DNA from: a virus
Length of the DNA stretch: 32,513 nt
Direction: 5' to 3' (one strand)
IMG/VR virus record: IMGVR_UViG_3300009183_005465
Location: 1-32,513 of that record
The notes beneath the pieces were generated by a model. That model did no database searches, was not told the origin of the DNA, and saw only the letters and a list, made by a program, of their open reading frames with translations. Positions 15,321-32,243 of the stretch are shown here, in pieces. How positions within the stretch are numbered: the first letter of the stretch is position 1; each line of letters starts with the position of its first letter. Both the position numbers and the translations under genes were made by a program.

Positions 15321-15949
15321 TGCGAACAGCTCTGGACACAGAGCTGTTTCCTGAACTGTGTGAGGTGGTAGAGATACCACCTCACAATCAATGGGTTTAT
15401 CTAATTCAAAAAAACGGAAGCAGCAGTTTGAGGGTTCAGCAAAAAAGAGATAATCTTGCTGTGTTCGCCAATGAAAAAATACATGGCCTTGATTACATAG
15501 ATGTGTATATTCGTAATCCTAGGTCCAGATATGTCAGTGGAATCAACACTTACATACAACTTTTGTTAACTGATCATCCTGAACTGGATTACAACACTGC
15601 ATTTTGGTTTGCTCGACGCTATAAATTTTTAAACACACATTATTTGCCGCAATTCCATTGGCTGGCAAACCTCAGTCAGTACTTGCATTCAAATGCAAAA
15701 ATACGTTTTAGAAATTTTCAAGACTTACGTCAGATCACTGACCTCAATCTTGGACCCACAGGAGTAACCAGTGCCACAGCTGAATTTGTCAAAACATTAT
15801 TTAAAAATGATGCTAACATTGAGCTGTGGTTATTTTTAGATCAAATATTACTGGATCTTGCAGGCCAGGAACTGACCTGGTCCCAATTGCTAGAGCATTA
15901 TCATCATAACCATCCTGAAATTATAAAACATGTATTGCCCAAGACTTGA
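15320..15949 (+). CDS. Sulfotransferase-family-like protein
   Basis: 209-residue protein with the two PAPS-binding signatures of sulfotransferases. A 5'-phosphosulfate loop-like LIQKNGSSSL lies at 29-37 (Lys31) and a 3'-phosphate motif-like VYIRNPRSRYVSGINTY at 62-78 (Arg65, Ser73). The spacing suits a short cytosolic sulfotransferase, though the protein is shorter than most cellular members. It would transfer sulfate from PAPS to a sugar or other hydroxyl. The start codon overlaps the gp32 stop by one base, so it is probably expressed from the gp32 promoter, unusual company for a tailoring enzyme. Function is family-level inference; a catalytically dead homolog cannot be excluded. Confidence 0.68.
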   Translation: MRTALDTELFPELCEVVEIPPHNQWVYLIQKNGSSSLRVQQKRDNLAVFANEKIHGLDYIDVYIRNPRSRYVSGINTYIQLLLTDHPELDYNTAFWFARRYKFLNTHYLPQFHWLANLSQYLHSNAKIRFRNFQDLRQITDLNLGPTGVTSATAEFVKTLFKNDANIELWLFLDQILLDLAGQELTWSQLLEHYHHNHPEIIKHVLPKT

Positions 15950-16907
15950 TCATTTTGTAAGATTTAACCCTGATGGCTCGATTGGTCGTTGTGGTCATAT
16001 GAACAACACACCAAAATTTGATTCACTAGAACAAATGGATTCTAGTGAATGGCTTGCAAATGTTCGAATATCGATGAGCAAAGACATTTGGCCAACAGAA
16101 TGTATTCGTTGCAAAGAAACAGAAGATGTTGCAAGCAAAAGTGTTAGGCAACATTCATTGGATCAACATGCGCAACTGCTGGATGCAAGATCAGATTATC
16201 TTGTGCTAGGTGGTGTGCTAGACAATGTGTGCAATAGTGCATGCCAAACATGCAATGAAACATTAAGCACTAAAATAGGTAGTTTGCATTCAAAAGACTA
16301 CATCAAGATCAACAACAAAACATTGATTGATACATTGCCTGCAGAACGTATTGTACAAATGGATATCAATGGCGGCGAACCCAGTACCAGCCCTGATTAT
16401 TTGAAGTTGTTGGAAAACTTGCCACCCAATGTCAAACATGTGCGAGTCAATACCAACGGCAGCAGATTGATCACAGTGTTGCCTGATTTGATTGAGCGCG
16501 GCATCAAAGTCACTGTGACTGTGAGTTTGGATGGCATCGGTCGCCGACATGATTATGTGCGTTGGCCTATTAAATGGCAGGATGTTGAACAAAATATTCA
16601 GACATATCAGGCCATGGGACTGCATGAATTAAACACCTGGACCACAGTAAGTGCATTGAACATCGGCGACTTGAAGAATATTTTTTCTTACGTACAACAA
16701 CACAATTTAAAAAATTCTTGGGCACTGTTGGAAAATCCTTCGATACTGAATGTAAAATATAGCAATCATTTGACAAGACAAGCCAAAGTCCCAGACGAAT
16801 TGAAGTCTGTCGTGGCTTCGGGTGAGGACAACACAGTTGAGTTGCAACTGTGGACTTTGGCGCAAGATCAGTTGCGCGGCATCAAACTCTGGGACTATTT
16901 TCAATGA
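15930..16907 (+). CDS. Radical SAM protein with twitch/SPASM-like cysteines (paralog 2)
   Basis: 325-residue radical SAM protein. The SAM cluster motif is C101-x3-C105-x2-C108 (CNSACQTC), with GGEP at 148-151. The N-terminal auxiliary module has C3, C21 and the C58-x2-C61 pair in the same layout as the paralog at 6133 (FNPDGSIGRCG, then CIRC). This copy is the shortest of the four. It overlaps the sulfotransferase-like gene by 20 bp and the SDR by 4 bp, so the three probably form one functional unit. Substrate unknown; modification of a sugar nucleotide, lipid head group or peptide is possible. Confidence 0.85.
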   Translation: MYCPRLDHFVRFNPDGSIGRCGHMNNTPKFDSLEQMDSSEWLANVRISMSKDIWPTECIRCKETEDVASKSVRQHSLDQHAQLLDARSDYLVLGGVLDNVCNSACQTCNETLSTKIGSLHSKDYIKINNKTLIDTLPAERIVQMDINGGEPSTSPDYLKLLENLPPNVKHVRVNTNGSRLITVLPDLIERGIKVTVTVSLDGIGRRHDYVRWPIKWQDVEQNIQTYQAMGLHELNTWTTVSALNIGDLKNIFSYVQQHNLKNSWALLENPSILNVKYSNHLTRQAKVPDELKSVVASGEDNTVELQLWTLAQDQLRGIKLWDYFQ

Positions 16908-17479
16908 AAGTAGCCATTACTGGACACACTGCAGGCATAGGCCAGGCATTTGCAAAGACCTTGCAGAAACGTGGTCATGAGATTGTGGGGTTGAGCAAAC
17001 GTGATGGTAACAACATTAGAAATTGTTCTAAGATTGTAGAAAAAATAATTCCATGCGATTTGTTCATAAACAATGCACAAGATGGTTATGCTCAAACAGA
17101 ATTACTATTTGCTGTGTGGCAGGCATGGCAAGATTGCCCAGGCAAGCACATTTGGTGTGTTGGTACCATGATGACCTTGGTCCCGGTGGCACCCCCAATT
17201 GTGAATCAAAGTGAAATGGCCATGGACGCCTACAGAAATCAAAAAATTGCACTGGATGATGCAGTATCTCAGCTTCGTCATAGAAAACATCTACCAGTTA
17301 TTACTATGATTAGACCAGGTAGTGTGGCCACTCAAGCAGGACAAACAGCTGAGTGGCCCAATTGCGATGTTGATACATGGGCAGACACAATAGTATCAAC
17401 GGTGGTATTGGCCAACGAACAAGGCATGAGATTTGTTGAATTGTCGTTGGCATCTGCTAAAAATAGGATCCCTTTGTAA
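16904..17479 (+). CDS. Short-chain dehydrogenase/reductase (SDR)
   Basis: 191-residue Rossmann enzyme starting at the ATGA overlap with the radical SAM gene. The nucleotide-binding TGHTAGIG is at 6-13, NNA at 56-58 and the catalytic Y110-x3-K114 (YRNQK). The usual catalytic Ser about 13 residues before the Tyr is not present (Pro-rich APP at that place; nearest Ser103), so activity may differ from standard SDRs. It is shorter than the usual ~250 residues. Likely an NAD(P)-dependent oxidation, reduction or epimerisation step in sugar modification, coupled with the flanking radical SAM genes (inference). It abuts the next radical SAM gene as TAATG. Confidence 0.8.
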   Translation: MKVAITGHTAGIGQAFAKTLQKRGHEIVGLSKRDGNNIRNCSKIVEKIIPCDLFINNAQDGYAQTELLFAVWQAWQDCPGKHIWCVGTMMTLVPVAPPIVNQSEMAMDAYRNQKIALDDAVSQLRHRKHLPVITMIRPGSVATQAGQTAEWPNCDVDTWADTIVSTVVLANEQGMRFVELSLASAKNRIPL

Positions 17480-18636
17480 TGCATGCTCGAGAAATACTAA
17501 CCAATCGTGCATTTTGCCCAATGCCATGGACTGGTATTATGTACAACTTTGATGGCACAATAAAAAATTGTATTCGCAGTTCAGCATCTATTGGCAATAT
17601 CAGCAATGTTCCCATCGAGGAAATACTCAGCCAAGATCATATGATCAAAACTGACATGAGAGCCGGTCAAAAACCCAATCGCTGTGATCCTTGTTATGAA
17701 TTAGAGCAAGAAAAAAACAAATTTGATATAATCAGCGATCGAGTATTTTATCTCAAAGAACTGCGCAATGTAGATAACACACTGTATGATACCACAAACT
17801 TTGACTTGCAAACTGTGGACATTCGTTGGAGCAACTTATGCAATTTTGCTTGTGTATATTGTAATCCAGAATTTAGCAGTAAGTGGGCCAGCGAACGTGA
17901 AGTTACAATGCTAACTCCTTCTGCTCAGCAAGTTGAAAAATTTAAAAGTTACATATTTGATCGAGCCTCACAACTCAAGCATGTGTATTTGGCAGGCGGA
18001 GAGCCATTGCTGATGAAAGAAAATTTGGAGTTTCTCGAATTACTCAAACAAGTCAATCCAGATGTTAATTTAAGAATCAATACCAATCTCAGTAAAGTTG
18101 ATACACGTATATTTGACACAATTTGCACATTTAAAAATGTACATTGGATTGTGAGCATAGAGACTATAGAATCAGAATACGAGTACATACGATATGGTGG
18201 AGTTTGGCAGGACTTTGTGGATAATTTACAAATTATCAAACAACTCAATCACAAAATATCTTTTAACATGCTTCATTTTTTGTTGAACCATTTTAGTATT
18301 TTTGATTGTGTGGATTATTTGTCTGCTCAAGGATTTCACAACAACAGTTTTATAATTGGTGCATTAACAGGGCCAGCATACCTAAATATTAGACATCTGC
18401 CAGAAAATGTGTTAAACTCAGTAAAGAAGATTTTAGCAGATCGAATCTCTGATCGTCCAGGATATCTATTGGAAAATGGATATCAAAATATGTTAAGGCA
18501 TTTAGATCAATCATTTGAAAAAGATCTAGCAGGATCATTTGAAAAAATAGCCAAGCTGGATCAACGGCGTAAATTAGACAGTAGAGCAATTTTTAAAGAT
18601 TTATACAAGGAAGAAAATCATGGGAAAACCATTTGA
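17479..18636 (+). CDS. Radical SAM protein with twitch/SPASM-like cysteines (paralog 3)
   Basis: 385-residue radical SAM protein. The cluster motif is C121-x3-C125-x2-C128 (CNFACVYC) followed by NPEFSSKWASER, close to AEACSSKWAALK of the paralog at 6133. GGEPLL is at 173-178. The auxiliary N-terminal Cys are C13 (FCPMPWTG), C31 and C69-x2-C72. After the core comes ETIESEYEYIRYGG, matching DNVGDQFEYVRYGS in paralog 1, so these two are the closest pair. The C-terminal part is a basic helical extension. It overlaps uvsX by 17 bp, tying its translation to a recombination gene. Substrate unknown. Confidence 0.87.
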   Translation: MHAREILTNRAFCPMPWTGIMYNFDGTIKNCIRSSASIGNISNVPIEEILSQDHMIKTDMRAGQKPNRCDPCYELEQEKNKFDIISDRVFYLKELRNVDNTLYDTTNFDLQTVDIRWSNLCNFACVYCNPEFSSKWASEREVTMLTPSAQQVEKFKSYIFDRASQLKHVYLAGGEPLLMKENLEFLELLKQVNPDVNLRINTNLSKVDTRIFDTICTFKNVHWIVSIETIESEYEYIRYGGVWQDFVDNLQIIKQLNHKISFNMLHFLLNHFSIFDCVDYLSAQGFHNNSFIIGALTGPAYLNIRHLPENVLNSVKKILADRISDRPGYLLENGYQNMLRHLDQSFEKDLAGSFEKIAKLDQRRKLDSRAIFKDLYKEENHGKTI

Positions 18637-19677: not shown

Positions 19678-19941
19678 ATGTCAGCAGAAGTAGCAAGCGA
19701 AATTTGGGGCGAATTAAAAAGATACGTCAATGTGGTAGATCGTATAGATGCTGCCGAAAGCATTGTGTCTATCCTGATTGATCACGATCATGACGTTGAA
19801 GAAATTCGAAATGCCTTCAAAGGTGATTCAGACATCAAAAAAGCCCTCACTGCATACCTAGACAACGACAAGGACTATGCAGAAGAGGATGAAGAAGAAC
19901 CGGATGAAGAAGACAACTACAATCAAGAAGATGACTACTGA
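19678..19941 (+). CDS. Small acidic conserved phage protein downstream of uvsX
   Basis: 87-residue protein, helical in the first 60 residues (IWGELKRYVNVVDRIDAAESIVSI...) and ending in a very acidic tail of about 25 residues (EEDEEEPDEEDN). It has an AAGGAA Shine-Dalgarno and an ATG 2 nt after the uvsX stop. Small proteins of this kind accompany uvsX in some marine T4-like phages, as I recall. An acidic tail could mimic DNA or dock to a recombination or SSB partner (inference). The TGA overlaps the next ATG (TGATG). No named function. Confidence 0.65.
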   Translation: MSAEVASEIWGELKRYVNVVDRIDAAESIVSILIDHDHDVEEIRNAFKGDSDIKKALTAYLDNDKDYAEEDEEEPDEEDNYNQEDDY

Positions 19942-21122
19942 TGTCTGCAGACAGAGACTACTATTGCTCTTATAAATTTAAATATTTAAAGATTGATCTA
20001 GTATCTAATGCCACATACAATTGTCATGCGGCCAAACAACATGCCATTGACTTTGAATGGTTGGCCAACAATCAAGGAAATGTATTCAATACCGACATCA
20101 ATATTGCTGAACGGCAAATGATGTTGGTCAATCAACGCAATGCCAGTTGCGAAGAAAATTGCTGGCCCTTAGAAGATAAAGGTGCAGTTAGTCCAAGATT
20201 ATGGCAGAACGGCAAAATAAAAACTCATGCGGATGTTTACACACAGCCAGAAATATTAGAAATAAAACTAAACGACAACTGCAATTTATCTTGCTCATAT
20301 TGCTGTAAGGAATTTAGTAGTGCATGGCGTAGAGATTTAGATATCAATGGAAATTATGCCATTGACACTGGCGATTCGAGATATAAGTTGACAACTCGTG
20401 ACAAGACGATGATCAAAGTCAGCCAGAATGAAGTTAAAAATACAAAACAATTTCAAATTCTAATGGATGAAATAAAAAGTTTTGCACCAGGATTAACAGA
20501 AATAGTAATAACCGGTGGAGAACCTTTGTTGGACAATCAACTGTTTGATGTTTTAGATGCAGTATCAAACAGTTCAGCAGTGATTAACATTTATACTGGA
20601 CTGGGAGTAGAGGTCAAAAGATTTCAACGCATGCTGGATAAAATAAAACAAATACCCACAGCAATGGTATCTATCAGTGCAGAGTGTACAGACGAGTTTT
20701 ATGAGTTTAACCGCTATGGAAATTGCTATACTGATTTTCTTTCCAAGATTGAGTTGTTGAAAAAATCTGGGATTGAATTTAGATTTAGTACAGCCATATC
20801 TAATCTCACAGTATTTGGATTAACAAGTTTTATTAAGTATTTCGTTGATCAACGCATAGGATTGGTGTTTGTCAATCAACCCAGCATGATGGCTCCGTAT
20901 GTGTTGGATGCCGACAGCAAGCAACAGATCATATATGACATTCAATCCCTGCCTGACCATTATCAAACTCAAATTGCACAGTCTATACAGGCTGACCCTA
21001 GTGAATCTCAGCGGCAACAAATGTCAGAATTTTTAAAAGAATATGTTGTTCGTAGAAATCTCAACGTGAACATTTATCCTCAAAGTTTTTTAGATTGGCT
21101 AGGTATACATGTGGTACAGTAA
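19941..21122 (+). CDS. Radical SAM protein with divergent N-terminal cysteines (paralog 4)
   Basis: 393-residue radical SAM protein. The SAM cluster motif is C114-x3-C118-x2-C121 plus a further Cys122 (CNLSCSYCC), then KEFSSAWRRDL, matching the SSKWA segment of paralogs 1 and 3. GGEPLLD is at 192-198. The N-terminal module is diverged: C9, C28, C70 and C74. An insertion of about 35 residues lies between the cluster loop and GGEP relative to the other copies. Codon use is more AT-rich in places than uvsX, suggesting separate acquisition. It is coupled to the acidic protein by TGATG and overlaps the next gene by 14 bp. Substrate unknown. Confidence 0.85.
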   Translation: MSADRDYYCSYKFKYLKIDLVSNATYNCHAAKQHAIDFEWLANNQGNVFNTDINIAERQMMLVNQRNASCEENCWPLEDKGAVSPRLWQNGKIKTHADVYTQPEILEIKLNDNCNLSCSYCCKEFSSAWRRDLDINGNYAIDTGDSRYKLTTRDKTMIKVSQNEVKNTKQFQILMDEIKSFAPGLTEIVITGGEPLLDNQLFDVLDAVSNSSAVINIYTGLGVEVKRFQRMLDKIKQIPTAMVSISAECTDEFYEFNRYGNCYTDFLSKIELLKKSGIEFRFSTAISNLTVFGLTSFIKYFVDQRIGLVFVNQPSMMAPYVLDADSKQQIIYDIQSLPDHYQTQIAQSIQADPSESQRQQMSEFLKEYVVRRNLNVNIYPQSFLDWLGIHVVQ

Positions 21123-21677: not shown

Positions 21678-22196
21678 ATGACAGGTATATACAAAGAACT
21701 TTTGCCCAAGTATGACTTGGTATATGATTTTATTGCCAAGTATCAACCGTGTAGTCTAATAGATTGGGGGTGTGCAAATGGCAATCTTCTCAACCGTGTG
21801 GGACAAGATTTCCCTGATATTCAAGAACTGGGAGGCTACGACCCTGGCAACCCTGATTATATGGTTGTGCCTGCTAGCACTTATGATTGTTTGGTCAGTT
21901 GTGATGTGATAGAACACTTTGAACCTGAACTGCTGGACCAATCATTGAAACTCATGCAAAGCAAGTTCCAACGTGCAGCCTTTCTAATCATTGCTTGTTA
22001 TCCTGCAAAGAAACGCCTGCCCGACGGGCGCAATGCACACTTGATCATTGAAAATGCAGACTGGTGGATGCGACGAGTTAAACAACAGTTTGATCAATGC
22101 AATATTACGTGGTCCGAGTCTGTGAACTTTACCGCCAACCCAGTAAAAAATCCCAATGGCAATCCTGAACTGCGATTGATATTAGAGAAACTTTAA
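21678..22196 (+). CDS. Small class I SAM-dependent methyltransferase (tandem copy 1)
   Basis: 172-residue Rossmann-like methyltransferase. Motif I is LIDWGCANGN (27-36), the acidic strand-2 residue is D55 (GYDPG), and the motif IV-like CDVIEH is at 75-80. The C-terminal segment ends in HLIIENADWWMRRV, and the following gene shares the H...(A/E)DWW signature, so the two are tandem paralogs. The short length leaves little room for a substrate domain. Likely O- or N-methylation of a sugar in the glycan cluster (inference). There is no clear Shine-Dalgarno. Confidence 0.8.
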   Translation: MTGIYKELLPKYDLVYDFIAKYQPCSLIDWGCANGNLLNRVGQDFPDIQELGGYDPGNPDYMVVPASTYDCLVSCDVIEHFEPELLDQSLKLMQSKFQRAAFLIIACYPAKKRLPDGRNAHLIIENADWWMRRVKQQFDQCNITWSESVNFTANPVKNPNGNPELRLILEKL

Positions 22197-22199
22197 AAC

Positions 22200-22712
22200 A
22201 TGAATACTCAATTAGATTTAGTAAAACAATTTCATGCTGGCAATAAAAATTGGGCAGGCAAAGGTACTTTGCAATATCTTCCAACAATTGAATCGGCATT
22301 TAAAAAACACGGTTGCCAAACTTTATTGGATTATGGTTGCGGCAAAGGACATCAGTATAGTGTGTATCAGATACAAAATAATCTATGCATACCACTGAGT
22401 GCAGTGTATCAATTTGATCCAGGATATGAGCCAGTTAGTCAAGAGCCAGACTGGAACTCTTCTTTTGATTGTAGTATGTGTCTTGATGTGTTGCAATTTT
22501 GTACAGATCAGCAAATTGATGACATAAAACAAAAATTACAAAAAGTCACTGCAAAAGTGTGCATAGTTGGCATAGGAATGGCACCCCCAAAGAACTTAAA
22601 AAAACCCTATGCCAGTTTGCACCCAGAAGATTGGTGGCGACAAAAGTTCTCAAACTGGGCCGGAACGTCAGAATTGATATTGGATTTACAGCACAACACT
22701 TTGTCCTCATAA
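22200..22712 (+). CDS. Small class I SAM-dependent methyltransferase (tandem copy 2)
   Basis: 170-residue methyltransferase 3 nt downstream of its paralog. Motif I is LLDYGCGKGHQY (42-53), D73 (FDPGYEP) would bind the SAM ribose, and CLDVLQF fills the motif IV region. Like its neighbour it has PP-K...SLHPEDWWRQKF near the C-terminus. The stop is followed by a palindromic late-promoter region. Two similar enzymes in tandem suggest methylation at two positions of one product (inference). Confidence 0.8.
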   Translation: MNTQLDLVKQFHAGNKNWAGKGTLQYLPTIESAFKKHGCQTLLDYGCGKGHQYSVYQIQNNLCIPLSAVYQFDPGYEPVSQEPDWNSSFDCSMCLDVLQFCTDQQIDDIKQKLQKVTAKVCIVGIGMAPPKNLKKPYASLHPEDWWRQKFSNWAGTSELILDLQHNTLSS

Positions 22713-22733: not shown

Positions 22734-23498
22734 ATGAAAATTGTAATTGTCACAGGCGGTTTTGACCCGCTACATTCTGGGCACATTGCCTATTTCCAAG
22801 CAGCCAAGGCTTTGGGACACAGACTGGTTGTTGGACTCAATTCAGACGACTGGTTAGTACGCAAAAAAGGCAGACCATTCATGCCCATGACTGAGCGTAG
22901 AGCCATTGTGGAAAATCTCTCCATGGTAGATCGAGTAATCGAGTTTGATGACTCTGATGACAGTGCTCGAGACGCCATACGCCTGGCCAAACTGTACTAT
23001 CCCATGCCTAAGGCCAAATTTATCTTTGCCAATGGCGGCGACAGGACTCAGGACAACATTCCTGAAATGTCAGAAACTAACGTGGAGTTTGTGTTTGGTG
23101 TAGGTGGTGAGAACAAAAAGAATTCCAGTTCGTGGATACTTGAAGATTGGAAGAAACCCAAGACTGAACGCACCTGGGGATATTATCGTGTGTTACACGA
23201 AGTACCGCCAAGAACCAAACTTAAAGAACTCACAGTCATGCCCAAAACATGCTTGAGCATGCAACGCCATAACAGTCGTGCAGAGTTTTGGTTTGTGGCC
23301 GAAGGTGAAGCCACTGTGTACACCTTGGATGAAGCCAGCACTGATCAAGAAATCAAATGCCACTTGACTGTGCATGAGAATACTTTTATTGCTGTGAATG
23401 AATGGCATCAACTTTGCAACGAAAGTGATCAACCCTTGAAGTTGATTGAAATCCAATACGGGGAACACTGTGTTGAGGAAGATATTGAACGTCGATGA
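22734..23498 (+). CDS. Nucleotidyltransferase-cupin fusion (sugar activation)
   Basis: 254-residue two-domain protein. Residues 1-140 are a cytidylyltransferase-like domain with GGFDPLHSGH (8-17, the HxGH nucleotide motif) and a C-terminal SSSWIL segment at the place of the family's ISSTxxR-like motif, as in RfaE2/TagD enzymes. Residues about 150-254 are a cupin resembling the type II mannose-6-phosphate isomerase/ManC C-terminal domain (LSMQRHNSRAEFWFVAEGEATV...NEWHQLCNES). The fusion suggests isomerisation or sensing of a phosphosugar coupled to its activation to an NDP-sugar (inference). It heads a co-directional glycan gene run; the stop overlaps the next ATG (ATGA). Confidence 0.85.
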   Translation: MKIVIVTGGFDPLHSGHIAYFQAAKALGHRLVVGLNSDDWLVRKKGRPFMPMTERRAIVENLSMVDRVIEFDDSDDSARDAIRLAKLYYPMPKAKFIFANGGDRTQDNIPEMSETNVEFVFGVGGENKKNSSSWILEDWKKPKTERTWGYYRVLHEVPPRTKLKELTVMPKTCLSMQRHNSRAEFWFVAEGEATVYTLDEASTDQEIKCHLTVHENTFIAVNEWHQLCNESDQPLKLIEIQYGEHCVEEDIERR

Positions 23499-24187
23499 AA
23501 CCCATTCCTGTATTTGTAGGATACGATCCACGAGAAGCCATTGCATATCATACATGCGTGAATTCAATTATTAGACATGCCAGTCAGCCTGTGGCAATTA
23601 TTCCTGTGGCGCTTAACTTGTTCCGAGACTACGATGAAACACACACTGATGGCAGCAATCAATTTATCTACAGCCGCTTCCTTGTGCCGCATTTGATGGA
23701 CTATCAAGGTTGGGCCATATTCATTGATGGCGACATGATCCTGCGTGGAGACATTGTGGAACTATGGAATTTGCAAAGCCCTTTCAACGACGTTATGGTC
23801 GTAAAACACAACTACAAAACACGCATGACTGAAAAGTATCTTGGCAGCAAAAACGAAGACTATCCACGCAAGAACTGGTCAAGTGTGATATTATGGAACT
23901 GCAACAGTTTTCCCAATCGCAAACTGACACCCGAGTTTGTGCAAAAATCAACAGGTGCTGAATTGCACAGATTCACATGGTTAGATGATGACCGCATTGG
24001 AGAACTGCCCCCAGAGTGGAACTGGTTGGACGTTGAGTATGAGTACAACCCTAACGCCAAACTTGTACACTACACACTGGGCACACCTTGCTTTCATGAG
24101 TTTGCTGATGCAGGTGATTTTGCAGAAGACTGGCATCAAGAAAGATTGCTAACTAACTATTGCGAACAGAGAACACAACATGGATGA
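23495..24187 (+). CDS. Glycosyltransferase, GT-A fold, GT8-like
   Basis: 230-residue GT-A transferase. The N-terminal strand IPVFVGYDPREAIAYHTCVNSI and the metal-binding D78-G-D80 (IFIDGDMI) fit GT8-like nucleotide-sugar transferases. A conserved NQFIYSRFLVP motif precedes the DxD, and HYTLGTPCFHEF near the C-terminus supplies the His metal ligand. Retaining transfer of hexose is usual for GT8; donor and acceptor here are unknown. Coupled by ATGA to the sugar-activating fusion upstream, whose product may be its donor (inference). There is no membrane segment. Confidence 0.82.
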   Translation: MKPIPVFVGYDPREAIAYHTCVNSIIRHASQPVAIIPVALNLFRDYDETHTDGSNQFIYSRFLVPHLMDYQGWAIFIDGDMILRGDIVELWNLQSPFNDVMVVKHNYKTRMTEKYLGSKNEDYPRKNWSSVILWNCNSFPNRKLTPEFVQKSTGAELHRFTWLDDDRIGELPPEWNWLDVEYEYNPNAKLVHYTLGTPCFHEFADAGDFAEDWHQERLLTNYCEQRTQHG

Positions 24188-25139
24188 ACAAGAACTAGCA
24201 CCGTTGTTACAACACGAACTTGACCTAGCACCACCTGAAGTCAAAGAATTATTTTATGACTTATTAAAATACCGTGTGGATCCAGCAGGAGACTATTATG
24301 GCCTGGACTTGGAAACATTGACTAAAAAAATTCAAACCTTAGACAATAATACCATACATGCCATTGACAGTGAATTTAGATATGCAGAAAAGGGAAAAAT
24401 GTTTGATCCTATATTACAAAGTTTTACCATGGGATGTGGTGGCCAAATAACCAATTGGAGCAAGAGTGAGCAGAGCATGGTGCCAGTGGTGTTGCGTGGT
24501 ATTACCAAACGCAAACAAATGGATGCTTGCCGTGCTGTCGGCAGAGATTTTTATTACATAGATACTGGATACTTTGGAAACGCCAAAAAAAAATCCTTTC
24601 ATCGAGTGACTCGTAACGATGTACAAAACTTTGGTCCTATTATAGATCGTCCCAGAGACAGACTGGGTGTAACAGGATTTCAACCACGCAAGTTCTATCG
24701 TGGTAGCAAAATACTCTTGGCTCCTCCCAGTCAAAAGTTGTTGAATCTTTATGACATAGATCTAGAACAATGGTTGGACAATGTTCTCAAAGATCTTGCT
24801 GGCAGAACAGATCGCGAAGTTGTTGTGCGCCGCAAGCCTGGCCGTACAGCCAGAACCAGTGATGATTCAATGGCACATGCCCTGGAACAAGACATACATT
24901 GTTTGATAACATTCTCAAGCATTGCTGCTGGTGAAGCCTTGCTCAATGGCAAACCTGCTATCACACTTGGACCTAACGCAGCCGCAGCATTGTGCAGCCA
25001 AACATTGGATGCTGTAAATGATCCTTATGTGCCCACACTAGACGAAGTAGAGCGTTGGGCAGCACACATTGCTTATTGTCAATTTACCGAAGCAGAAATG
25101 CGCAACGGTACAGCATGGAGAATTTTGCAGGGTGGTTGA
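24180..25139 (+). CDS. KpsC/KpsS-like capsule-type protein (paralog A) with extra N-terminal domain
   Basis: 319-residue protein distantly like KpsC/KpsS/GT-B capsule enzymes. The C-terminal half has EVVVRRKPGR, then CLITFSSIAAGEALLNGKPAITLGP and a DEVERWAAHIAYCQFTEAEM end. The minus-strand gene at 28750 is a close paralog through MLRGI/VLRGI, YIDTGYFGN/YMDSGYLGN, RPRDR/RPSDR and the SIA-EA-L-G-P block. About 70 residues at the N-terminus (acidic, helical) have no counterpart in that paralog. It overlaps the upstream GT gene by 8 bp. Probable role: sugar transfer or glycan handling; reaction unproven. Confidence 0.62.
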   Translation: MDEQELAPLLQHELDLAPPEVKELFYDLLKYRVDPAGDYYGLDLETLTKKIQTLDNNTIHAIDSEFRYAEKGKMFDPILQSFTMGCGGQITNWSKSEQSMVPVVLRGITKRKQMDACRAVGRDFYYIDTGYFGNAKKKSFHRVTRNDVQNFGPIIDRPRDRLGVTGFQPRKFYRGSKILLAPPSQKLLNLYDIDLEQWLDNVLKDLAGRTDREVVVRRKPGRTARTSDDSMAHALEQDIHCLITFSSIAAGEALLNGKPAITLGPNAAAALCSQTLDAVNDPYVPTLDEVERWAAHIAYCQFTEAEMRNGTAWRILQGG

Positions 25140-26055
25140 TGTTGTAGTGTACATTAGCAGTGTGGCTAATCCGCAGAAACATTCCAGAAAAATACAATGC
25201 CTGGAAAGTTTTGCTGATGGTGTGAGAGCGGTTGGCCACACAGTCAACATAGAATGGGAACACAAATATACCCCCAGTAAACTAGCAGTGATGTTGGGCT
25301 GGGCTACCACAAACACTGGTGGCCGCAATATTGCACTAAGAAAACAAATCATTCCTGAACAGCGCAGACTGGGATTTCAAACCATGTGTATAGATGCGTC
25401 ATGTTGGAAGTATCTTGACGATCACGGCAACTACTTGCGATACAGTCTAAATGGTCCATTCTATGACCGTGCTGAATATGCCAACCGCAACAGTGATGCT
25501 ACCAAATGGTTAGAAATAAGTCGTACACTAGGGGTACAGTTGAACCCAGTCAAGGTCAACTCAGCAGGGCATATCTTGATCTGCATGCAACGAGATGGCG
25601 GGTTTGCGATGAAAACTCTGGACCCAATGACTTGGTTGCATGAAAAAATACATCAAATCAGAGCAGTGAGCAGTAGACAGATTTATGTGCGTCCACATCC
25701 TGGTCAATACAGCATGGCAGACTTTGCTATGTACAACAGCAAAATGGGCAAGAGACAAAACGTGGTCATACTAGAGCCTACTCAAAGTCGTTTGATTGAC
25801 AATTTGCAAGGCGCACATTCAGCAGTGTTCTTTAACAGCAGTGCCAGCGTGGCAGCGGCATGCGAAGGTATCCCTGTATTTGCAGATGATTCAAGTTGTG
25901 TGGCCTGGGCAGTGGCCAACAAGGATGTCTCTAAAATTGAAACACCAGAAACATTCTCCAGAGAACAATGGATGTACGATCTAGCAGCCGCACACTGGAG
26001 CGACGCGGATGCCCGTGCAGGGCGTGTCTATCAAAAGTTTTTGCCTTACTTGTAA
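25132..26055 (+). CDS. KpsC/KpsS-like capsule-type protein (paralog D)
   Basis: 307-residue protein. I chose a GTG start at 25132, which overlaps the upstream stop by 8 bp and has GGAG 11 nt before it; the only longer option begins with TTG inside the upstream gene. Signatures are RQIYVRPHPGQYS in the middle, then AHSAVFFNSSASVAAACEGIPVFADDSS, the same 'A-vv-nS-a-a-aG-P' block as paralogs A, B, C and E. Its 3' end overlaps the convergent minus-strand gene by 10 bp, with no terminator between. Likely GT-B-type glycan enzyme (inference). Confidence 0.62.
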   Translation: MVDVVVYISSVANPQKHSRKIQCLESFADGVRAVGHTVNIEWEHKYTPSKLAVMLGWATTNTGGRNIALRKQIIPEQRRLGFQTMCIDASCWKYLDDHGNYLRYSLNGPFYDRAEYANRNSDATKWLEISRTLGVQLNPVKVNSAGHILICMQRDGGFAMKTLDPMTWLHEKIHQIRAVSSRQIYVRPHPGQYSMADFAMYNSKMGKRQNVVILEPTQSRLIDNLQGAHSAVFFNSSASVAAACEGIPVFADDSSCVAWAVANKDVSKIETPETFSREQWMYDLAAAHWSDADARAGRVYQKFLPYL

Positions 26056-26888
26056 ATCTGATAAGCTTCAACCAAGTCGGCCACAGATTCTGTACAATCA
26101 GTAAATTCCCAGATATGAAACTGACTCCAACAAACATGATCCCACCAGTCTGTTCTATCCGGGTATTGTCTGTCAAACAAATTTTCCAACCCTCCCATGA
26201 GCAAGGTAGTAATTGACAAGTCTACGGTGTATGCGGGCACACCCGACAACACTGCCTCTGCACAGGCCATAGTGCGTTCTCCAACCACGGCATGTGCTCG
26301 AGTCATTTGATTTTGAAAATTTTGAAATCTTAACGATTTGTCCCCAGCCTTTTTACGCCACATGATAGGACCGTCCCAGTATTTTTTAATTTCTTGTGCA
26401 ATTTCATCACACCATTGCACCAATGTGATACCTCGACGCTGAATCAATATTTCGTTGACAGGCATGGGTACTAGCACATATTCTCCAGGTGTGTGTTTCC
26501 ACTCTTGCTGCTCAGGTTTTTGAAACAACTGTGTTCTTGGCCAAGGACGTATGCGCATGTTCATATTATGATGCCCACAATAGGTAACTCTACGAGTATT
26601 ACGCCTGGGAATGTCTTCTCCCCAGTAACCAAAATCAATTTCAATCCAAGGACGACCAGCCTCAATCCACTCTTTGAGTGGACTCCACCAAGGTGCAAAA
26701 TGGCTCACTACCAATATATGATCTTCAGGAATGTCTTCGATCAAATCAAATATTTTTAGTCCTTTAAGCCGCCAAGGTTCCAAGGTCCATCTTTCATGGT
26801 CACCTTTGACTGCTGGTGACCATGCGTATTTTATTTCCACCCCATGATCCAGTCGTCTTTGACTTGATCCAGACGTATCATACCCCAT
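26046..26888 (-). CDS. KpsC/KpsS-like capsule-type protein (paralog C), minus strand
   Basis: 280 residues from the ATG at 26888, which overlaps the FkbM gene by 58 bp. An in-frame GTG at 26840 (VEIKYAWSPAV...) overlaps by only 10 bp and may be the true start. Features: a DIPEDHILVVSHFAPWW strand, PIMWRKKAGDKS, then AHAVVGERTMACAEAVLSGVPAYTVD, the family block with ERTMA replacing the usual NSxA. It is the last gene of the minus-strand operon and ends tail to tail with paralog D. Aromatic-rich C-terminus. Function inferred only from the shared pattern. Confidence 0.6.
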   Translation of the reverse strand: MGYDTSGSSQRRLDHGVEIKYAWSPAVKGDHERWTLEPWRLKGLKIFDLIEDIPEDHILVVSHFAPWWSPLKEWIEAGRPWIEIDFGYWGEDIPRRNTRRVTYCGHHNMNMRIRPWPRTQLFQKPEQQEWKHTPGEYVLVPMPVNEILIQRRGITLVQWCDEIAQEIKKYWDGPIMWRKKAGDKSLRFQNFQNQMTRAHAVVGERTMACAEAVLSGVPAYTVDLSITTLLMGGLENLFDRQYPDRTDWWDHVCWSQFHIWEFTDCTESVADLVEAYQIYK

Positions 26889-27481
26889 GACCGCATGAGT
26901 TCGATGGCAGCATGTTGAGCATACTGATCACTGTAGGCATCGTGAGGCTTTTGCTCTACCACCACAACAGGACGACATCTTTTGATAGTTGCTTCGGCAC
27001 CTTGCAAGATACGATACTCGTAGCCTTCGCAGTCCATTTTGATATAGTCTACTGTGTCTAAGTCTAGATCATCCAGTCGGTATACTTCGGTATCTCCTTG
27101 CCCTAGTGTAGCAGGATCGATGTGGGTGTGGCCGGTATTGCCTTCTGTAATGATCATGGTGGCAGTTGTGCGCTGGTCCCCTAATGCAAAGTCTTTGACC
27201 TGCAGGTTGTCAGCAGCAACATTTCGAATCAAGCACTCGCGGAACATGGCCACAGGTTCAAATGCCAGTACTGTGCGGAAGTTCTTGCAAAGGCTACGAC
27301 TCCACAAGCCCACGTTGGCGCCAATGTCCAAGGCAACACCACGTTGTTTGACATAGGTCATACTACGGTCCCTTACTTGATATTGATATTCAGCAGGTCC
27401 ACCTTTGTCTATGCTTTTTTTCAGCATCTTTGGAAAATGTGATTCGGCATCTGGAAACCACCACCCTTGGTATTCATACAT
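26831..27481 (-). CDS. FkbM-family methyltransferase
   Basis: 216-residue SAM-dependent methyltransferase. Motif I is VALDIGANVGLW (49-60), followed by AFEPVAMFRECL, a DLDTVDYIKMDCEGYE motif (the typical FkbM 'D-x-K-x-D-x-E-G-x-E' block) and ILQGAEATIKRCRPVVVVEQ. FkbM members methylate hydroxyls of polyketides and sugars and are common in surface-polysaccharide loci. It has a clear AAGGAG Shine-Dalgarno 7 nt before the ATG on the minus strand. Fifth gene of the inverted operon. The family call is firm; the acceptor is unknown. Confidence 0.88.
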   Translation of the reverse strand: MYEYQGWWFPDAESHFPKMLKKSIDKGGPAEYQYQVRDRSMTYVKQRGVALDIGANVGLWSRSLCKNFRTVLAFEPVAMFRECLIRNVAADNLQVKDFALGDQRTTATMIITEGNTGHTHIDPATLGQGDTEVYRLDDLDLDTVDYIKMDCEGYEYRILQGAEATIKRCRPVVVVEQKPHDAYSDQYAQHAAIELMRSWGMIRLDQVKDDWIMGWK

Positions 27482-27496
27482 TTGATATCTCCTTGT

Positions 27497-28192
27497 TTAT
27501 TGTTGATTTGACAAAAATTTTGTATTTCTAGTCAGTGACATTGCGTGAATGTTATCGTCTACAGCATAGAATGGATGCAATCTTGCCATGGTTGGCCAGC
27601 AAGTTTCTATACATGCTACCCGTGTGCCCAATTGATGATCTGATGGCAAAAATCCACGGTCAGCAATCCAGTCAATTATGTTTTTTGCGGCATGGGGCTT
27701 GATGATGTATGCATAAGATCCCCAGGAATAAAAGCCAGCGTCATTGTGTAATTTTTCATTGTGGTTGATTTCAGTTATCTCTAGGCCACAATCATCATGG
27801 AATGAATCTTCTATGATTTTTGAGTACTCTAGATCGTAAGGATTCAATGAATCTAATTTCAAAATGTCTTGAAATCTATCTAAAATATCATCGGGCAATG
27901 GCCTAATAAAGTAACCATCATGTTCCAGTATTATTATGGGTTCATTTAGTTCTACGCATTTTGACCAAAGATAGTAATGGCTCAACAAACAGCCATACAC
28001 TCCTGGCAGGCCTTTTTTAAAAAATTTCAACGGCCGTATGTTTAACTTTTCGCAATGTGTTTGATGTTCAAGGCCATTCACAGCATCAAAATATTCAACA
28101 TCTATGTTGAATGTTCGGGCTTGTTCCACACAGTCCTGGGCCTGTTGTTCAGAAATTTTATTGTGTTTCAATCTAATTATAAACGATTTCAT
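27497..28192 (-). CDS. Glycosyltransferase family 25-like protein
   Basis: 231-residue protein starting at the ATG at 28192 (MKSFIIRLKHNKISEQ); a longer frame would need a TTG. GT25 signatures are the N-terminal 'RLKHNKISEQQA..C...A' strand-helix, GVYGCLLSHYYLW (64-76) and IIILEHDG (86-93), the latter supplying the acidic donor-binding residues. GT25 enzymes add beta-linked galactose in lipooligosaccharide synthesis. No Shine-Dalgarno is seen; it lies 7 nt after the upstream methyltransferase stop. Cytosolic. Donor and acceptor unknown. Confidence 0.82.
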   Translation of the reverse strand: MKSFIIRLKHNKISEQQAQDCVEQARTFNIDVEYFDAVNGLEHQTHCEKLNIRPLKFFKKGLPGVYGCLLSHYYLWSKCVELNEPIIILEHDGYFIRPLPDDILDRFQDILKLDSLNPYDLEYSKIIEDSFHDDCGLEITEINHNEKLHNDAGFYSWGSYAYIIKPHAAKNIIDWIADRGFLPSDHQLGTRVACIETCWPTMARLHPFYAVDDNIHAMSLTRNTKFLSNQQ

Positions 28193-28199
28193 AGTATGT

Positions 28200-28760
28200 T
28201 CAAACACAAATGGCTGCAATGCTGGAGTTATCTAACCAATACAAACTGGAAACTTTTTTGTTGCTAAATTTATTGATGGTATTCTTCAAGGTATATGGGC
28301 TGTACCAACAGTTGTGATCAGCATGCACCAGTTCACTAAATCCATCAGCAGTTTCTTCAAAATTCTTTTGCAACAAGTATGCATCCGGTGCAGTAACAAT
28401 CAAAGTACCAGTGTAGTTATTTAATGTGGCAAAAAAATCAGCCACATTGCTCACATGTTCAATCACTTCTGGTACCAAAATCACATCATAGTCATTGGGA
28501 ACCTGATCCCAATCCGAAAAAATATCACCATTGGGCACACGTAATTTTTCTGCTGGTTCAATATTGGCATCTATACCATCCAATCTAGCACACCAAGGCG
28601 CTATCACAAGATGCAGAGTTTTATCTGCTGAAATCTTTTTTGGCCAATCCACAAATCCCACATGCAAAACTTTTTTACCCATCAGTAGTGGCTGAAAAAA
28701 ACCTAATCTACTGCTGTGGCGATGTGTTTGATCTACTGACAACAGTGGTCTACTGCCCAT
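28200..28760 (-). CDS. Class I SAM-dependent methyltransferase (minus-strand copy)
   Basis: 186 residues from the ATG at 28760, supported by GAGGA (28769-28773) 8 nt upstream and an 11-bp overlap with the preceding gene; an ATG at 28817 would overlap 68 bp. The pattern KKVLHVGFVDW replaces a canonical motif I (G-x-G weakened to GFVD), while VILVPEVIEHVSN (93-105) is a strong motif IV-like block and HADHNCWYSPYTL matches sugar or quinone methyltransferases. The weakened SAM loop is worth noting. Probable methylation in glycan assembly (inference). Confidence 0.72.
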   Translation of the reverse strand: MGSRPLLSVDQTHRHSSRLGFFQPLLMGKKVLHVGFVDWPKKISADKTLHLVIAPWCARLDGIDANIEPAEKLRVPNGDIFSDWDQVPNDYDVILVPEVIEHVSNVADFFATLNNYTGTLIVTAPDAYLLQKNFEETADGFSELVHADHNCWYSPYTLKNTINKFSNKKVSSLYWLDNSSIAAICV

Positions 28761-29556
28761 ACAGCATTTCCTCTGTTGCTCTAAGTATCTTTTCTGCTCG
28801 ACCGTTCTTGAATTCATCTATATGAAACTGACCATAAGCCAAATGATATGCCCAGGCCAACACCTGATCTCGATCTGGAAACCAAGGTTTGTCTATGCAA
28901 GCCAAGTCTGTGTTGCTTACTGGTCTGGCAGCATTTGATGGTGCCATGGCAAACACGGGCACACCTGCTAGGATGGCTTCTGTGCCTGCTATTGAGTTGA
29001 ACGTTACAACAGCATGCACATCATCCAAGGCTCGCTCCACACGATTTGTTTTTCTATCAGTGCGACTCCGATTGCGTTCACGTACGACAATGGGACGATC
29101 AGTGTGTTGTTGGATAGTGGCCACAGTCTCCGCCAACCAAGTGTCTAGTTCTATGTCGTAAAACTTGCAAGGCTTTTCATCAGGTGCCACAATTAATATT
29201 TGACTGCCACCACGGCGATTGGCTGCCTCTAATCCCAGTTGATTCCAACGATCACTGGGTCGTGGAATAACTTGATCATGTTGTAGATTGTTGGGCACAA
29301 TCCTGTGCCAATGTTTCCAACCGTGAGGATTTTTAAAACCAGGACGATTGCCCAAGTATCCCGAATCCATGTATCTAAATGGTCTTTTATCTGCCCAGCA
29401 CTGTTTGATGATCTTGTGCTTCATTATGCCACGTAGCATGAGTGGCTCGTCGCTGTCCTCATAACGCCAAGATTCCAGGGGCGTACTCTCAAGCCCAAGC
29501 CCATGTGCATACATGTCAATGTATTCGTCATCGCCATTCTTGCTTAAAAATATCAT
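28750..29556 (-). CDS. KpsC/KpsS-like capsule-type protein (paralog B), minus strand
   Basis: 268-residue protein clearly paralogous to the plus-strand gene at 24180. Shared elements are LRGI-K, Y-D(T/S)GY(F/L)GN, IPRPSDR, FYDIELDTWLAETV, PIVVRERNRSR and AVVTFNSIAGTEAILAGVPVFAM, with a QFHIDEFKNG end. It lacks the ~70-residue N-terminal addition of paralog A. Start ATG overlaps the upstream stop (ATGA). The opposite orientation of two close paralogs about 4 kb apart makes them a potential substrate for inversion of the intervening DNA. Likely glycan enzyme. Confidence 0.62.
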   Translation of the reverse strand: MIFLSKNGDDEYIDMYAHGLGLESTPLESWRYEDSDEPLMLRGIMKHKIIKQCWADKRPFRYMDSGYLGNRPGFKNPHGWKHWHRIVPNNLQHDQVIPRPSDRWNQLGLEAANRRGGSQILIVAPDEKPCKFYDIELDTWLAETVATIQQHTDRPIVVRERNRSRTDRKTNRVERALDDVHAVVTFNSIAGTEAILAGVPVFAMAPSNAARPVSNTDLACIDKPWFPDRDQVLAWAYHLAYGQFHIDEFKNGRAEKILRATEEMLYGQ

Positions 29557-30335
29557 TGCCAGTATTTTTCAGTGCGTCGGACCACAAGGTCTTTGAGTTT
29601 GCTACGGCCATCGCCCTTGCGTTTGCCTTTGAGATGGTCAATGTATGCACCCCATTCACAGTTGATCAGCGGATGACCTTCGCCGTTGATCAGGCCGGCT
29701 GACCAGTTTAGTTCTGCTAGTCCGCTACGATTCTTAACATCATCGAACACATAACTGTCATGCCATTCTGACAGTCGGAATATACCGTTTTCGGCATCGT
29801 CATACATACGTTGGAACTCTGCCAAGAACTTTTGTATGGGGTCACGCCGCAAGTTCATGCCGTACAAGCCACATTCAGAGAACTTGTTGCTACGACCTGC
29901 ATAACACAGTTCTCGATCATCTGGAAAGAATTGTGCAATACGCGGTACAGTGATTGGGCTGTGGCACACCATGTCGGCATCCATCCAAATTAGCCAATCT
30001 GTAGTGGCATGCCGGGCAGCATGAAATATGGCATACACTTTGTGAGCAAAACGCACTGCTTGCCATTTGAATGCTTTGCGTTCACTGCCTGGACCAATGT
30101 CCCCATTGGCCTTGGGCACGTTGCGCCATTTGTTCTTAAATGTCACAAGGTCTGCACTAACCCCTTCCAGATCCAGCACTTGCAAGTTGGGCGCAGTTTC
30201 AGTTACTACACAGCCCTCGGCGTACACTCGGAGCAGGATATCTTTGGGCCATGTGGCCAAAAATGTTTGAATCATTCGCCGACCATAAGTCTTATAACCT
30301 TCGGCGTTAAAAGTGGTAACTACAGTGTATTTCAT
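29553..30335 (-). CDS. Glycosyltransferase, GT-A type, first gene of the minus-strand operon
   Basis: 260 residues from the ATG at 30335 (MKYTVVTTFNAEGYKTYG). Metal-binding D119-A-D121 lies in WLIWMDADMVCHSP. The N-terminal strand TVVTTFN and a C-terminal LNWSAGLINGEGHPLINCEWG segment fit nucleotide-sugar transferases. A TGTAAATA late-type box ends 5 nt upstream, and no Shine-Dalgarno is visible. It heads six tightly spaced genes running 30335 to 26046. Sugar specificity unknown. Confidence 0.78.
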   Translation of the reverse strand: MKYTVVTTFNAEGYKTYGRRMIQTFLATWPKDILLRVYAEGCVVTETAPNLQVLDLEGVSADLVTFKNKWRNVPKANGDIGPGSERKAFKWQAVRFAHKVYAIFHAARHATTDWLIWMDADMVCHSPITVPRIAQFFPDDRELCYAGRSNKFSECGLYGMNLRRDPIQKFLAEFQRMYDDAENGIFRLSEWHDSYVFDDVKNRSGLAELNWSAGLINGEGHPLINCEWGAYIDHLKGKRKGDGRSKLKDLVVRRTEKYWQ

Positions 30336-30340
30336 AGACG

Positions 30341-30348
30341 TATTTACA
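30341..30348 (-). promoter_or_regulatory. Late-promoter-like box (TGTAAATA) for the minus-strand operon
   Basis: On the minus strand CACTGTAAATACG (30351-30339) is identical over 13 nt to the sequence before the radical SAM gene at 6133. The box lies 5 nt before the ATG at 30335. It occupies the 13-bp space between divergent genes and overlaps the putative GTG start of the plus-strand gene. Confidence 0.5.
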
Positions 30349-31200
30349 GTGATCAAAACCATAGCCTATTTTCCTGCCCAATGTGCGCTAAACAGCAAGC
30401 CTGTAATGAGTGCATTTTTGGATTGTTGTCAGGCCTCGGGCATACAAACACAAGAGAACTCCATGACTGCAGATGCGGCAGTGATTTGGTCAGTGCTGTG
30501 GCATGGTAGAATGCGCCCCAATCAAGGAGTGTATGAACACTACCGCAGTCAAAACAAGCCGGTGATTGTGATAGACATTGGTGCGCTGTATCGTGGGCAA
30601 ACTTGGAAATTGGCAGTGAACCACATCACTCGGGATGGCTATTACGGTCATGAACACGATTTGGATCTGGGTCGTCCTAGACAATTGCAAATAAGTCTAG
30701 CCACCCAGCTAAACCCAGGTCCTGAAATCATTATTGCTGCACAACATCGAAACAGTCTGCAAGTGGACGGGCTTGGCAGCATGGAAGACTGGGTATTGAT
30801 GCAAATTCAACAACTACGCAACTCAACTGATCGTCCCATACGTATACGTGCGCACCCTCGCTCACCATTACGCATGCCATACCTGCCCAAAAACGTCACA
30901 ATGGAAGTTGCACGTCCTGTGGTCAACACTTACGACAGTTTTGACATGCACTTTAACTGTCATGCTGTAGTCAATCACAATTCGGGACCGGGTATACAAG
31001 CAGGCATTGCAGGGTGCAGACCCATTGTGGCACACAGCAGCCTGGCATATCCTGTGGCAGTGGGTATGCCTGACATTGAACAACCCTATGAAGTAGACAG
31101 AGAACTGTGGTTAGCAAAGATATGCCACACTGAATACACTGTGCAAGAACTACGAGAAGGACTATGGCTAAAAAGAATCGAGCCCGCACTGACAGCATGA
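30349..31200 (+). CDS. KpsC/KpsS-like capsule-type protein (paralog E)
   Basis: About 283 residues from a GTG at 30349 (IKTIAYFPAQCALNS...); an ATG at 30406 is the alternative start, and a more upstream GTG would overlap the divergent gene. Features: DAAVIWSVLWHGRM, PVIVIDIGALYRG, RPIRIRAHPRSP, then CHAVVNHNSGPGIQAGIAGCRPIVAHSS, the family 'nS...aG-P' block, and a YTVQELREGLW end. Same fold type as paralogs A-D but only distantly similar. ATGA overlap with the next GT gene. Probable role in transfer or processing of a surface sugar chain. Confidence 0.62.
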   Translation: MIKTIAYFPAQCALNSKPVMSAFLDCCQASGIQTQENSMTADAAVIWSVLWHGRMRPNQGVYEHYRSQNKPVIVIDIGALYRGQTWKLAVNHITRDGYYGHEHDLDLGRPRQLQISLATQLNPGPEIIIAAQHRNSLQVDGLGSMEDWVLMQIQQLRNSTDRPIRIRAHPRSPLRMPYLPKNVTMEVARPVVNTYDSFDMHFNCHAVVNHNSGPGIQAGIAGCRPIVAHSSLAYPVAVGMPDIEQPYEVDRELWLAKICHTEYTVQELREGLWLKRIEPALTA

Positions 31201-31913
31201 CTGATTGTGCATGTGTGATCCATGGCACTGGTTACGACTGGGTGTACGTGGAAAAACTATACAACATGTTGTCACGTCATTTACCTGATGGTATACGTTT
31301 TCATGTTTATACTGAAGCAGATAGGCCAGTGCCACCACACATGATCAAGCATGTGGTGAAAGAATGGCCGGGTATTTCGGGACCCAAGCGTGAATGGTGG
31401 TACAAGATGCAGTTGTTCAATCCTGAGCATCACTCAGGCAACTTGTTGTACTTTGATCTTGATTGTGTGATCATAAATGATTTGAGTTGGATTCCAGCAT
31501 TGAGTACAGAATGCTTTTGGACCATTAGAGACTTTAGATATCTTCAACGCAAAACATATTCAGGAATGAATAGCAGTGTGATGTGGTGGAATGTTGCCCG
31601 GTATGCACATGTGTGGCACGACTTTGATCAATTGGATATCAACAGAACAGTTGTAAAATACCCCGGCGACCAAGATTACTTGGGAGTGGTAATTGATCCC
31701 AATCAACGCAGACACTTTGATCAGCACCATTTACAAAGTTGGCGCTGGCAAGTGAGTGATGGCGGATATAATTTTGCCACAAGAAAACCCAATGCACCAG
31801 GTGCTGGGGCAAATGCCTACATTGGTGGCGAAACAAGTATATTGGTATTTCATGGCCGTCCCAAGCCGCATGAATGTACCAGCGATCCTGTAATTGCAAA
31901 CAACTGGTGCTAG
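31197..31913 (+). CDS. Glycosyltransferase-like protein, GT-A type
   Basis: 238 residues from the ATG at 31197, which overlaps the upstream stop (ATGA); the ATG at 31164 would overlap 37 bp. Metal motif D87-L-D89-C (LLYFDLDCVI), a PKREWWYKMQLF helix before it, GDQDYLG (D-x-D acceptor-region motif) and a C-terminal VFHGRPKPHE that supplies the His ligand. This set matches a GT8-like uncharacterised glycosyltransferase common in bacterial and phage genomes. Last gene of the glycan cluster; its stop runs into the promoter module at 31914. Confidence 0.78.
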   Translation: MTDCACVIHGTGYDWVYVEKLYNMLSRHLPDGIRFHVYTEADRPVPPHMIKHVVKEWPGISGPKREWWYKMQLFNPEHHSGNLLYFDLDCVIINDLSWIPALSTECFWTIRDFRYLQRKTYSGMNSSVMWWNVARYAHVWHDFDQLDINRTVVKYPGDQDYLGVVIDPNQRRHFDQHHLQSWRWQVSDGGYNFATRKPNAPGAGANAYIGGETSILVFHGRPKPHECTSDPVIANNWC

Positions 31914-31960
31914 GTAATACTTAGGTAGTACTTGACCAGAAATTCCCTTTTTGTTATACT
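31914..31960 (+). promoter_or_regulatory. Sigma70-type promoter with GTAATACTT/GTAGTACTT repeats (copy 1)
   Basis: TTGACC (31932-31937), 17-bp spacer, TATACT (31955-31960). Upstream, GTAATACTT (31914) and GTAGTACTT (31925) are direct repeats 11 bp apart, one helical turn, the second overlapping the -35. The same module recurs at 32197. Drives the 69-residue gene. Confidence 0.8.
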
Positions 31961-32200: not shown

Positions 32201-32243
32201 TACTTTGGTAGTACTTGACCATTAATTCAATATTTGCTATAAT
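32197..32243 (+). promoter_or_regulatory. Sigma70-type promoter with GTAATACTT/GTAGTACTT repeats (copy 2)
   Basis: TTGACC (32215-32220), 17-bp spacer, TATAAT (32238-32243). GTAATACTT (32197) and GTAGTACTT (32208) repeat the layout at 31914, with one change in 25 nt between the copies. The left repeat lies within AAAGTAATACTTT, a near-perfect palindrome, and overlaps the stop of the 69-residue gene. Confidence 0.8.

Follow-up and report, generated by a model that had tools for sequence, protein, structure and literature searches.

Five divergent paralogs in a 32,513-base IMG/VR virus record (IMGVR_UViG_3300009183_005465, analysed whole and referred to here as the window), which we name a (24180), b (25132), c (26046), d (28750) and e (30349), are glycosyltransferases of the GT-B type with the fold of WbbB, KpsC and KrkA, the β-linking transferases of 3-deoxy-d-manno-oct-2-ulosonic acid (Kdo), as judged from structural models of b and d and, for a, c and e, from homology to these two. 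Genes a, b, d and e make up a long-established cassette of fixed order in large freshwater phages, with c as an optional fifth member, and this cassette probably builds a phage-specific sugar coat. Although it is common in these phages, its proteins are unannotated, and the cassette suggests that glycans built by phages are widespread. A viral branch that keeps the fold under strong selection with the catalytic nucleophile gone also offers a natural test of how the double-displacement mechanism is gained or lost.

In pairwise comparisons with BLOSUM45, a and d were closest (37% identity, E = 6e-48), followed by c–d (5e-12), a–c (3e-10), b–d (1e-9), b–e (2e-9) and d–e (2e-7). Against shuffled controls, nine of the ten pairs scored z values of 6 to 54; b and c were non-significant when compared directly and are joined via d. 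A profile of the five members recovered all of them together with 342 more open reading frames (ORFs) in related loci, and at the level of sequence the five are confirmed as true paralogs. A preliminary description of the window had proposed five related genes at these positions, with c and d on the minus strand, and had named the blocks they have in common; the ORFs are present, their homology is far above chance and the blocks are real, comprising the 'vR-hP/rkpG' strand with an invariant R, the 'A-vv-nS' type block (in full 'HAVV-nS-A-EA-l-G-P') and an aromatic and acidic end ('W--h-AyxQF--E'). The family tree gives a, b, c, d and e one clade apiece, with a and d clustering together and b and e clustering with a copy from phage ct7QV12 and with Caulobacter phage copies that carry an HP motif, the deep placements being unsure owing to long branches. 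Relative to their homologs, all five genes are under strong purifying selection (median ω 0.07 to 0.14), as are their GT-A neighbours, and are therefore most likely functional rather than decaying.

The fold assignment is clearest for b. With the AlphaFold model of b (predicted local distance difference test (pLDDT) 89), KpsC was the best structural match (Z = 14.6 over 246 residues), followed by WbbB (14.0) and KrkA (12.6), with the next GT-B at 11.2. Foldseek placed KrkA first (E = 1e-6) and KpsC next, the best KrkA and KpsC chains spanning 1e-6 to 7e-6. Although d is devoid of the catalytic motifs, WbbB, KpsC and KrkA also filled the first 15 ranks with its model (pLDDT 90; Z = 11.4 to 9.0); the next match scored 8.9, so the margin is narrow and the result for d is the weaker of the two because unrelated GT-B enzymes rank close behind. 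Sequence signals to the same enzymes are modest and are best read jointly with the fold. WbbB was the sole PDB match of the family profile (E = 0.0035), and hhalign aligned the profile with KpsC colinearly over 200 columns (E = 1.2e-5, probability 81%) and with KpsS over a short block, both sequences being taken from the annotated Escherichia coli Nissle chromosome; alignment to the N-terminal module of KpsC was weak and that to the C-terminal module and the full-length protein was better. Four proteins of Tetraselmis virus 1, an algal giant virus, also match the d model (BFVD A0A2P0VP54, A0A2P0VNK4, A0A2P0VP74 and A0A2P0VP72), a second case of multiple copies within one virus.

Family databases gave no usable name for any of the five in Pfam, PHROGs or NCBIfam. 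None of the five window proteins matches the Pfam family Capsule_synth (PF05159), to which even the Caulobacter phage homolog CcrColossus gp127 reaches only E = 0.068. For DUF6716 (PF20471, gathering cut-off 27 bits), d scored 14.4 bits, and weak matches occur in 13 of 54 family members (best E = 2e-4). We found no description of these phage proteins in the literature searched, most subscription journals lying outside its coverage.

The active site separates the phage proteins from the enzymes whose fold they have. WbbB, KpsC and KrkA have been shown to act by double displacement; they hold the sugar on a QXXXD Asp and bind cytidine monophosphate (CMP) with a (K/R)XHP motif (PMC9587256, PMC12887879); the general-base Glu in the N-terminal half varies in position among Kdo-transferase families (PMC12887879). 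Across 365 distinct sequences, motifs are uniform within clades: QRDGG with RPHPG in b and mostly QHxxS with RxHPR in e (HP-type), and PSQKLL with R-x-K in a, PDEKPC with R-x-R in d and P-x-x-E/K with R-x-K in c (K-type). The QXXXD motif is complete in none of the five clades, the Asp at +4 being absent and replaced by G in b and S in e; its Gln is retained only in b and e, with P in its place in a, c and d. The (K/R)XHP motif is present in 81 of 84 b and 82 of 83 e sequences and is lost from the three K-type clades (one loose match in 187 sequences).

Comparison with each reference enzyme follows this division. KpsC (GT107, both modules), the Kdo-linker synthase of group 2 capsules, aligns its Gln and its HP His with those of b, whereas the phage proteins lack the QXXXD Asp, have a single module, do not match PF05159 and lie outside a capsule export locus. 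The GT99 module of WbbB, the Raoultella O-antigen β-Kdo transferase, is the best match to d by structure and to the family by PDB sequence, but the equivalent of its D232 is missing in all five and that of H265 in a, c and d. KrkA (GT140, E. coli K13), for all its first place with b in Foldseek, has the lower Z value and likewise a nucleophile with no phage counterpart. With the Asp nucleophile missing in all clades and the HP His in three, 'Kdo transferase' is therefore unfit as a label, and the five should not be called by it. The term 'KpsC/KpsS-like' in the preliminary description accordingly holds for fold and distant homology and fails for enzyme family; comparison with KpsC and KpsS and the structure ranking did not scatter the five among unrelated folds.

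The cassette is strongly conserved among relatives, four of its five members holding their order in a hundred or more related phage contigs. A d/a-type query matched at least 584 related stretches. Full-length loci read a+ b+ d− e+ in 72 cases and a+ b+ c− d− e+ in 23 (some contigs counted more than once), and shorter loci carry pieces of the four-gene order, except for one a+ b+ a+ and one a+ d− e+. Four copies, no more and no fewer, are present in the larger contigs, which reach 364 kb; one contig of 66 kb has five. Across 61 distinct loci, some incomplete, the usual partners are a GT2-like enzyme (57/61), an FkbM methyltransferase (55/61), a cytidylyltransferase-cupin protein (53/61) and the phrog_1962 glycosyltransferase (47/61), and a GT25 enzyme occurs in 13. 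The interval between b and d is variable: in these loci methyltransferase genes, GT25 and others combine into 23 architectures. Coupling to a GT-A gene is seen for three members, a, d and e (Table 1), and in 25 ORFs of relatives GT8 and a are fused. In the window lineage the cassette lies between recombination (UvsX) or terminase genes on one side and replication genes (helicase, primase) on the other.

These partners bear out several further points of the preliminary description. The four GT-A-type neighbours it listed are a GT8, a GT2-like, a GT25 and the phrog_1962 enzyme, the last being read as GT-A type from its DLD motif, and methyltransferases do lie nearby, namely the FkbM-type gene at 26831 and Methyltransf_23-like genes at 21678 and 28200, both scoring under the Pfam cut-off. 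Its proposal of a custom glycan draws good support from the GT-A enzymes, methyltransferases and nucleotidyltransferase-cupin protein that are conserved alongside the paralogs. The 'expansion' it described predates the window lineage, four copies being found in all large related contigs searched and c alone being optional. Of the two roles it offered for the glycan, receptor masking and virion decoration, the second would fit better, for the reasons given below.

More distant relatives are found among virion genes. Caulobacter phages of the Dolichocephalovirinae (CcrSC gp170/gp171, CcrColossus gp127/gp128) carry an adjacent pair of the same family, one HP-type and one K-type, accompanied by an FkbM methyltransferase (CcrSC, CcrPW) or by other glycosyltransferase genes (CcrColossus); they have only two copies, unlike the window, and these directly follow tail genes and precede lysis genes. 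The ct7QV12 member adjoins the terminase. A further member sits on Bradyrhizobium elkanii plasmid pUSDA31-2 (NZ_CP126028.1), which looks like a phage-plasmid, in a cluster of glycosyltransferase and methyltransferase genes between portal and tail genes. Scanning for bacterial homologs with one family member returned a sole match, an a-like ORF (34% identity) on the Woesearchaeota-binned contig CALCXY010000050.1, which may be a misbinned viral contig. Moraphages (PMC12619734) may be comparable: they are large and aquatic, have four core glycosyltransferase orthogroups and are predicted to infect Bacteroidota.

We favour, at about an even chance, an assembly line that builds a glycan in the cytosol and puts it on virion proteins. 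The HP-type enzymes b and e would recognise a cytidine-linked donor by means of R-x-HP and the Gln upstream of it; because the Asp nucleophile is gone, they would employ either another nucleophile or an inverting mechanism for the transfer. In the K-type enzymes a, c and d the donor would be changed, with Lys or Arg taking over the phosphate contact. Three members would work in series with translationally coupled GT-A partners (GT8–a, GT2–d and e–phrog_1962), the methyltransferases would cap or vary the chain, and donors would come from the protein at 22734 and from host pathways. Assembly would be cytosolic and the most likely acceptor a virion protein of tail or head, with the variable genes between b and d altering glycan structure from phage to phage. 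Two results favour decoration over receptor masking: the search for export genes gave no match to Wzx (PF01943) or ABC-2 exporters (PF01061) in contigs of up to 364 kb, and the distant relatives sit among virion genes; in addition, no cassette protein has a hydrophobic segment above a Kyte–Doolittle value of 1.4.

Several points weigh against this reading. The cassette of the window lineage is not directly beside tail-fibre genes, so that the argument for the virion is one of analogy. The contigs contain no CMP-sugar synthetase or NeuB, and a CMP donor would therefore have to be host-derived. The pairing of HP-type and K-type copies is also not universal, as Pelagibacter phage Mosig has two K-type copies and no HP-type. 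A broader proposal, which we hold tentatively and consider possible rather than likely, is that the phage branch of the Kdo-transferase fold abandoned the covalent-Asp mechanism, that HP- and Lys-type enzymes differ in donor, and that the wiring of a, d and e to GT-A partners makes a modular line whose exchangeable middle genes would give rise to phage 'serotypes'.

The cassette might instead modify the host surface during infection, at the lipopolysaccharide (LPS) core or O-antigen, and thereby block superinfection or keep virions from sticking to debris. We consider this unlikely, but the strongest of the alternatives: the relatives by fold belong to LPS and capsule synthesis, the RfaE-like nucleotidyltransferase domain recalls heptose donors, and soluble glycosyltransferases could reach the LPS core, since cells assemble it at the cytosolic side of the membrane. 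The lack of membrane segments in the cassette and of flippase or exporter family matches in the contigs speaks against it, as does the location of distant relatives inside virion gene blocks.

Some of a, c and d could also be inactive as catalysts and serve to place or regulate the GT-A enzymes, an arrangement compatible with any acceptor hypothesis. Loss of the known catalytic residues would be in keeping with this, as would the GT8–a fusion and the coupling of d to GT2, but the replacement residues are conserved clade by clade (PSQKLL, PDEKPC, R-x-K), which suggests a changed rather than a lost active site and leaves dead partners an improbable account.

It is more doubtful still that the HP-type enzymes are genuine retaining transferases of β-Kdo or another CMP-ulosonate with a displaced acid nucleophile. 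Besides keeping Gln and HP in b and e, the family has an acid at +2 after the Gln in all 81 b sequences read (QRDGG or QREGG); the +4 assignment rests on alignment, and this acid could in principle serve instead. The ct7QV12 member, the only one seen with a complete set (QVPQD and RPHP), has from its motifs the best claim of all the phage relatives to be a true Kdo-type transferase. Against displacement of the acid, the +4 Asp is missing in every clade, and Gln and HP His are both missing in a, c and d. The ct7QV12 gene lies at ~37.09–37.94 kb on the minus strand of this small phage (MW202713.1) and is largely unannotated. Hypermodification of phage DNA in the manner of T4-type glucosyltransferases is a similarly poor prospect: GT-B enzymes act on DNA in some phages and the cassette sits between recombination and replication genes, but DNA modification is disfavoured because no thymidylate synthase or dCMP hydroxymethylase family protein was matched in contigs of 66 to 364 kb, which are perhaps incomplete, and at least seven glycosyltransferases with FkbM methyltransferases exceed the needs of known DNA glycans.

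Table 1. Genes of the glycan cassette and its immediate surroundings in the window (aa, amino acids; nt, nucleotides)
Feature	Coordinates	Strand	Remarks
Two small methyltransferase-like ORFs	21678-22196, 22200-22712	+	21678 Methyltransf_23-like, under Pfam cut-off
Cytidylyltransferase-like (RfaE domain II/TagD superfamily) and ManC-type cupin protein	22734..23498	+	
GT8-family GT-A glycosyltransferase, partner of a	23495..24187	+	PF01501; fused to a in relatives
Paralog a, K-type (PSQKLL / R-x-K), 319 aa	24180..25139	+	8-nt overlap with GT8 gene
Paralog b, HP-type (QRDGG / RPHPG), ~307 aa, GTG start	25132..26055	+	Model pLDDT 89
Paralog c, K-type, 280 aa	26046..26888	-	Optional, in a subset of relatives only
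FkbM-type methyltransferase	26831..27481	-	
GT25-family glycosyltransferase, optional cargo of the b-d interval	27497..28192	-	
Methyltransf_23-like methyltransferase, optional	28200..28817	-	Score under Pfam cut-off
Paralog d, K-type (PDEKPC / RERN), 268 aa	28750..29556	-	Model pLDDT 90; start overlaps stop of GT2-like gene by 4 nt
GT2-like GT-A glycosyltransferase, partner of d	29553..30362	-	
Paralog e, HP-type (QHxxS / RxHPR), ~283 aa, GTG start	30349..31200	+	37-nt overlap with the 31164 glycosyltransferase gene
phrog_1962 glycosyltransferase (DLD motif), partner of e	31164..31913	+	PHROGs match

Among the neighbouring genes, the protein at 22734 is a possible supplier of activated donor; its N-terminal domain resembles heptose-1-phosphate adenylyltransferase and glycerol-3-phosphate cytidylyltransferase, under the cut-offs of those families. 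The ORF at 22200 groups by sequence with that at 21678. Promoter and terminator scans of the cassette gave results at chance level, and a transfer RNA scan found none. Near-identical promoter-like boxes at 31925-31960 and 32208-32243 (GTAGTACTTGACC-N-TATACT/TATAAT, with TG preceding the −10) stand upstream of small genes beyond the cassette.

The window phage is large and from fresh water; it encodes SSB and a recombinase resembling UvsX, along with a terminase of T4 type. The terminase is closest to that of Pseudomonas phage PA5oct and its kin (51% identity), then to those of Sinorhizobium phage Phosso and Agrobacterium phage Atu_ph07. Four radical-SAM proteins (6133-7257, 15930-16907, 17479-18636 and 19941-21122), at least the first with a SPASM domain, are encoded by genes interspersed among virion and recombination genes of the window, and a related contig has several further radical-SAM ORFs beside ORFs that by eye resemble a 2-oxoglutarate-dependent oxygenase and SGNH hydrolases.

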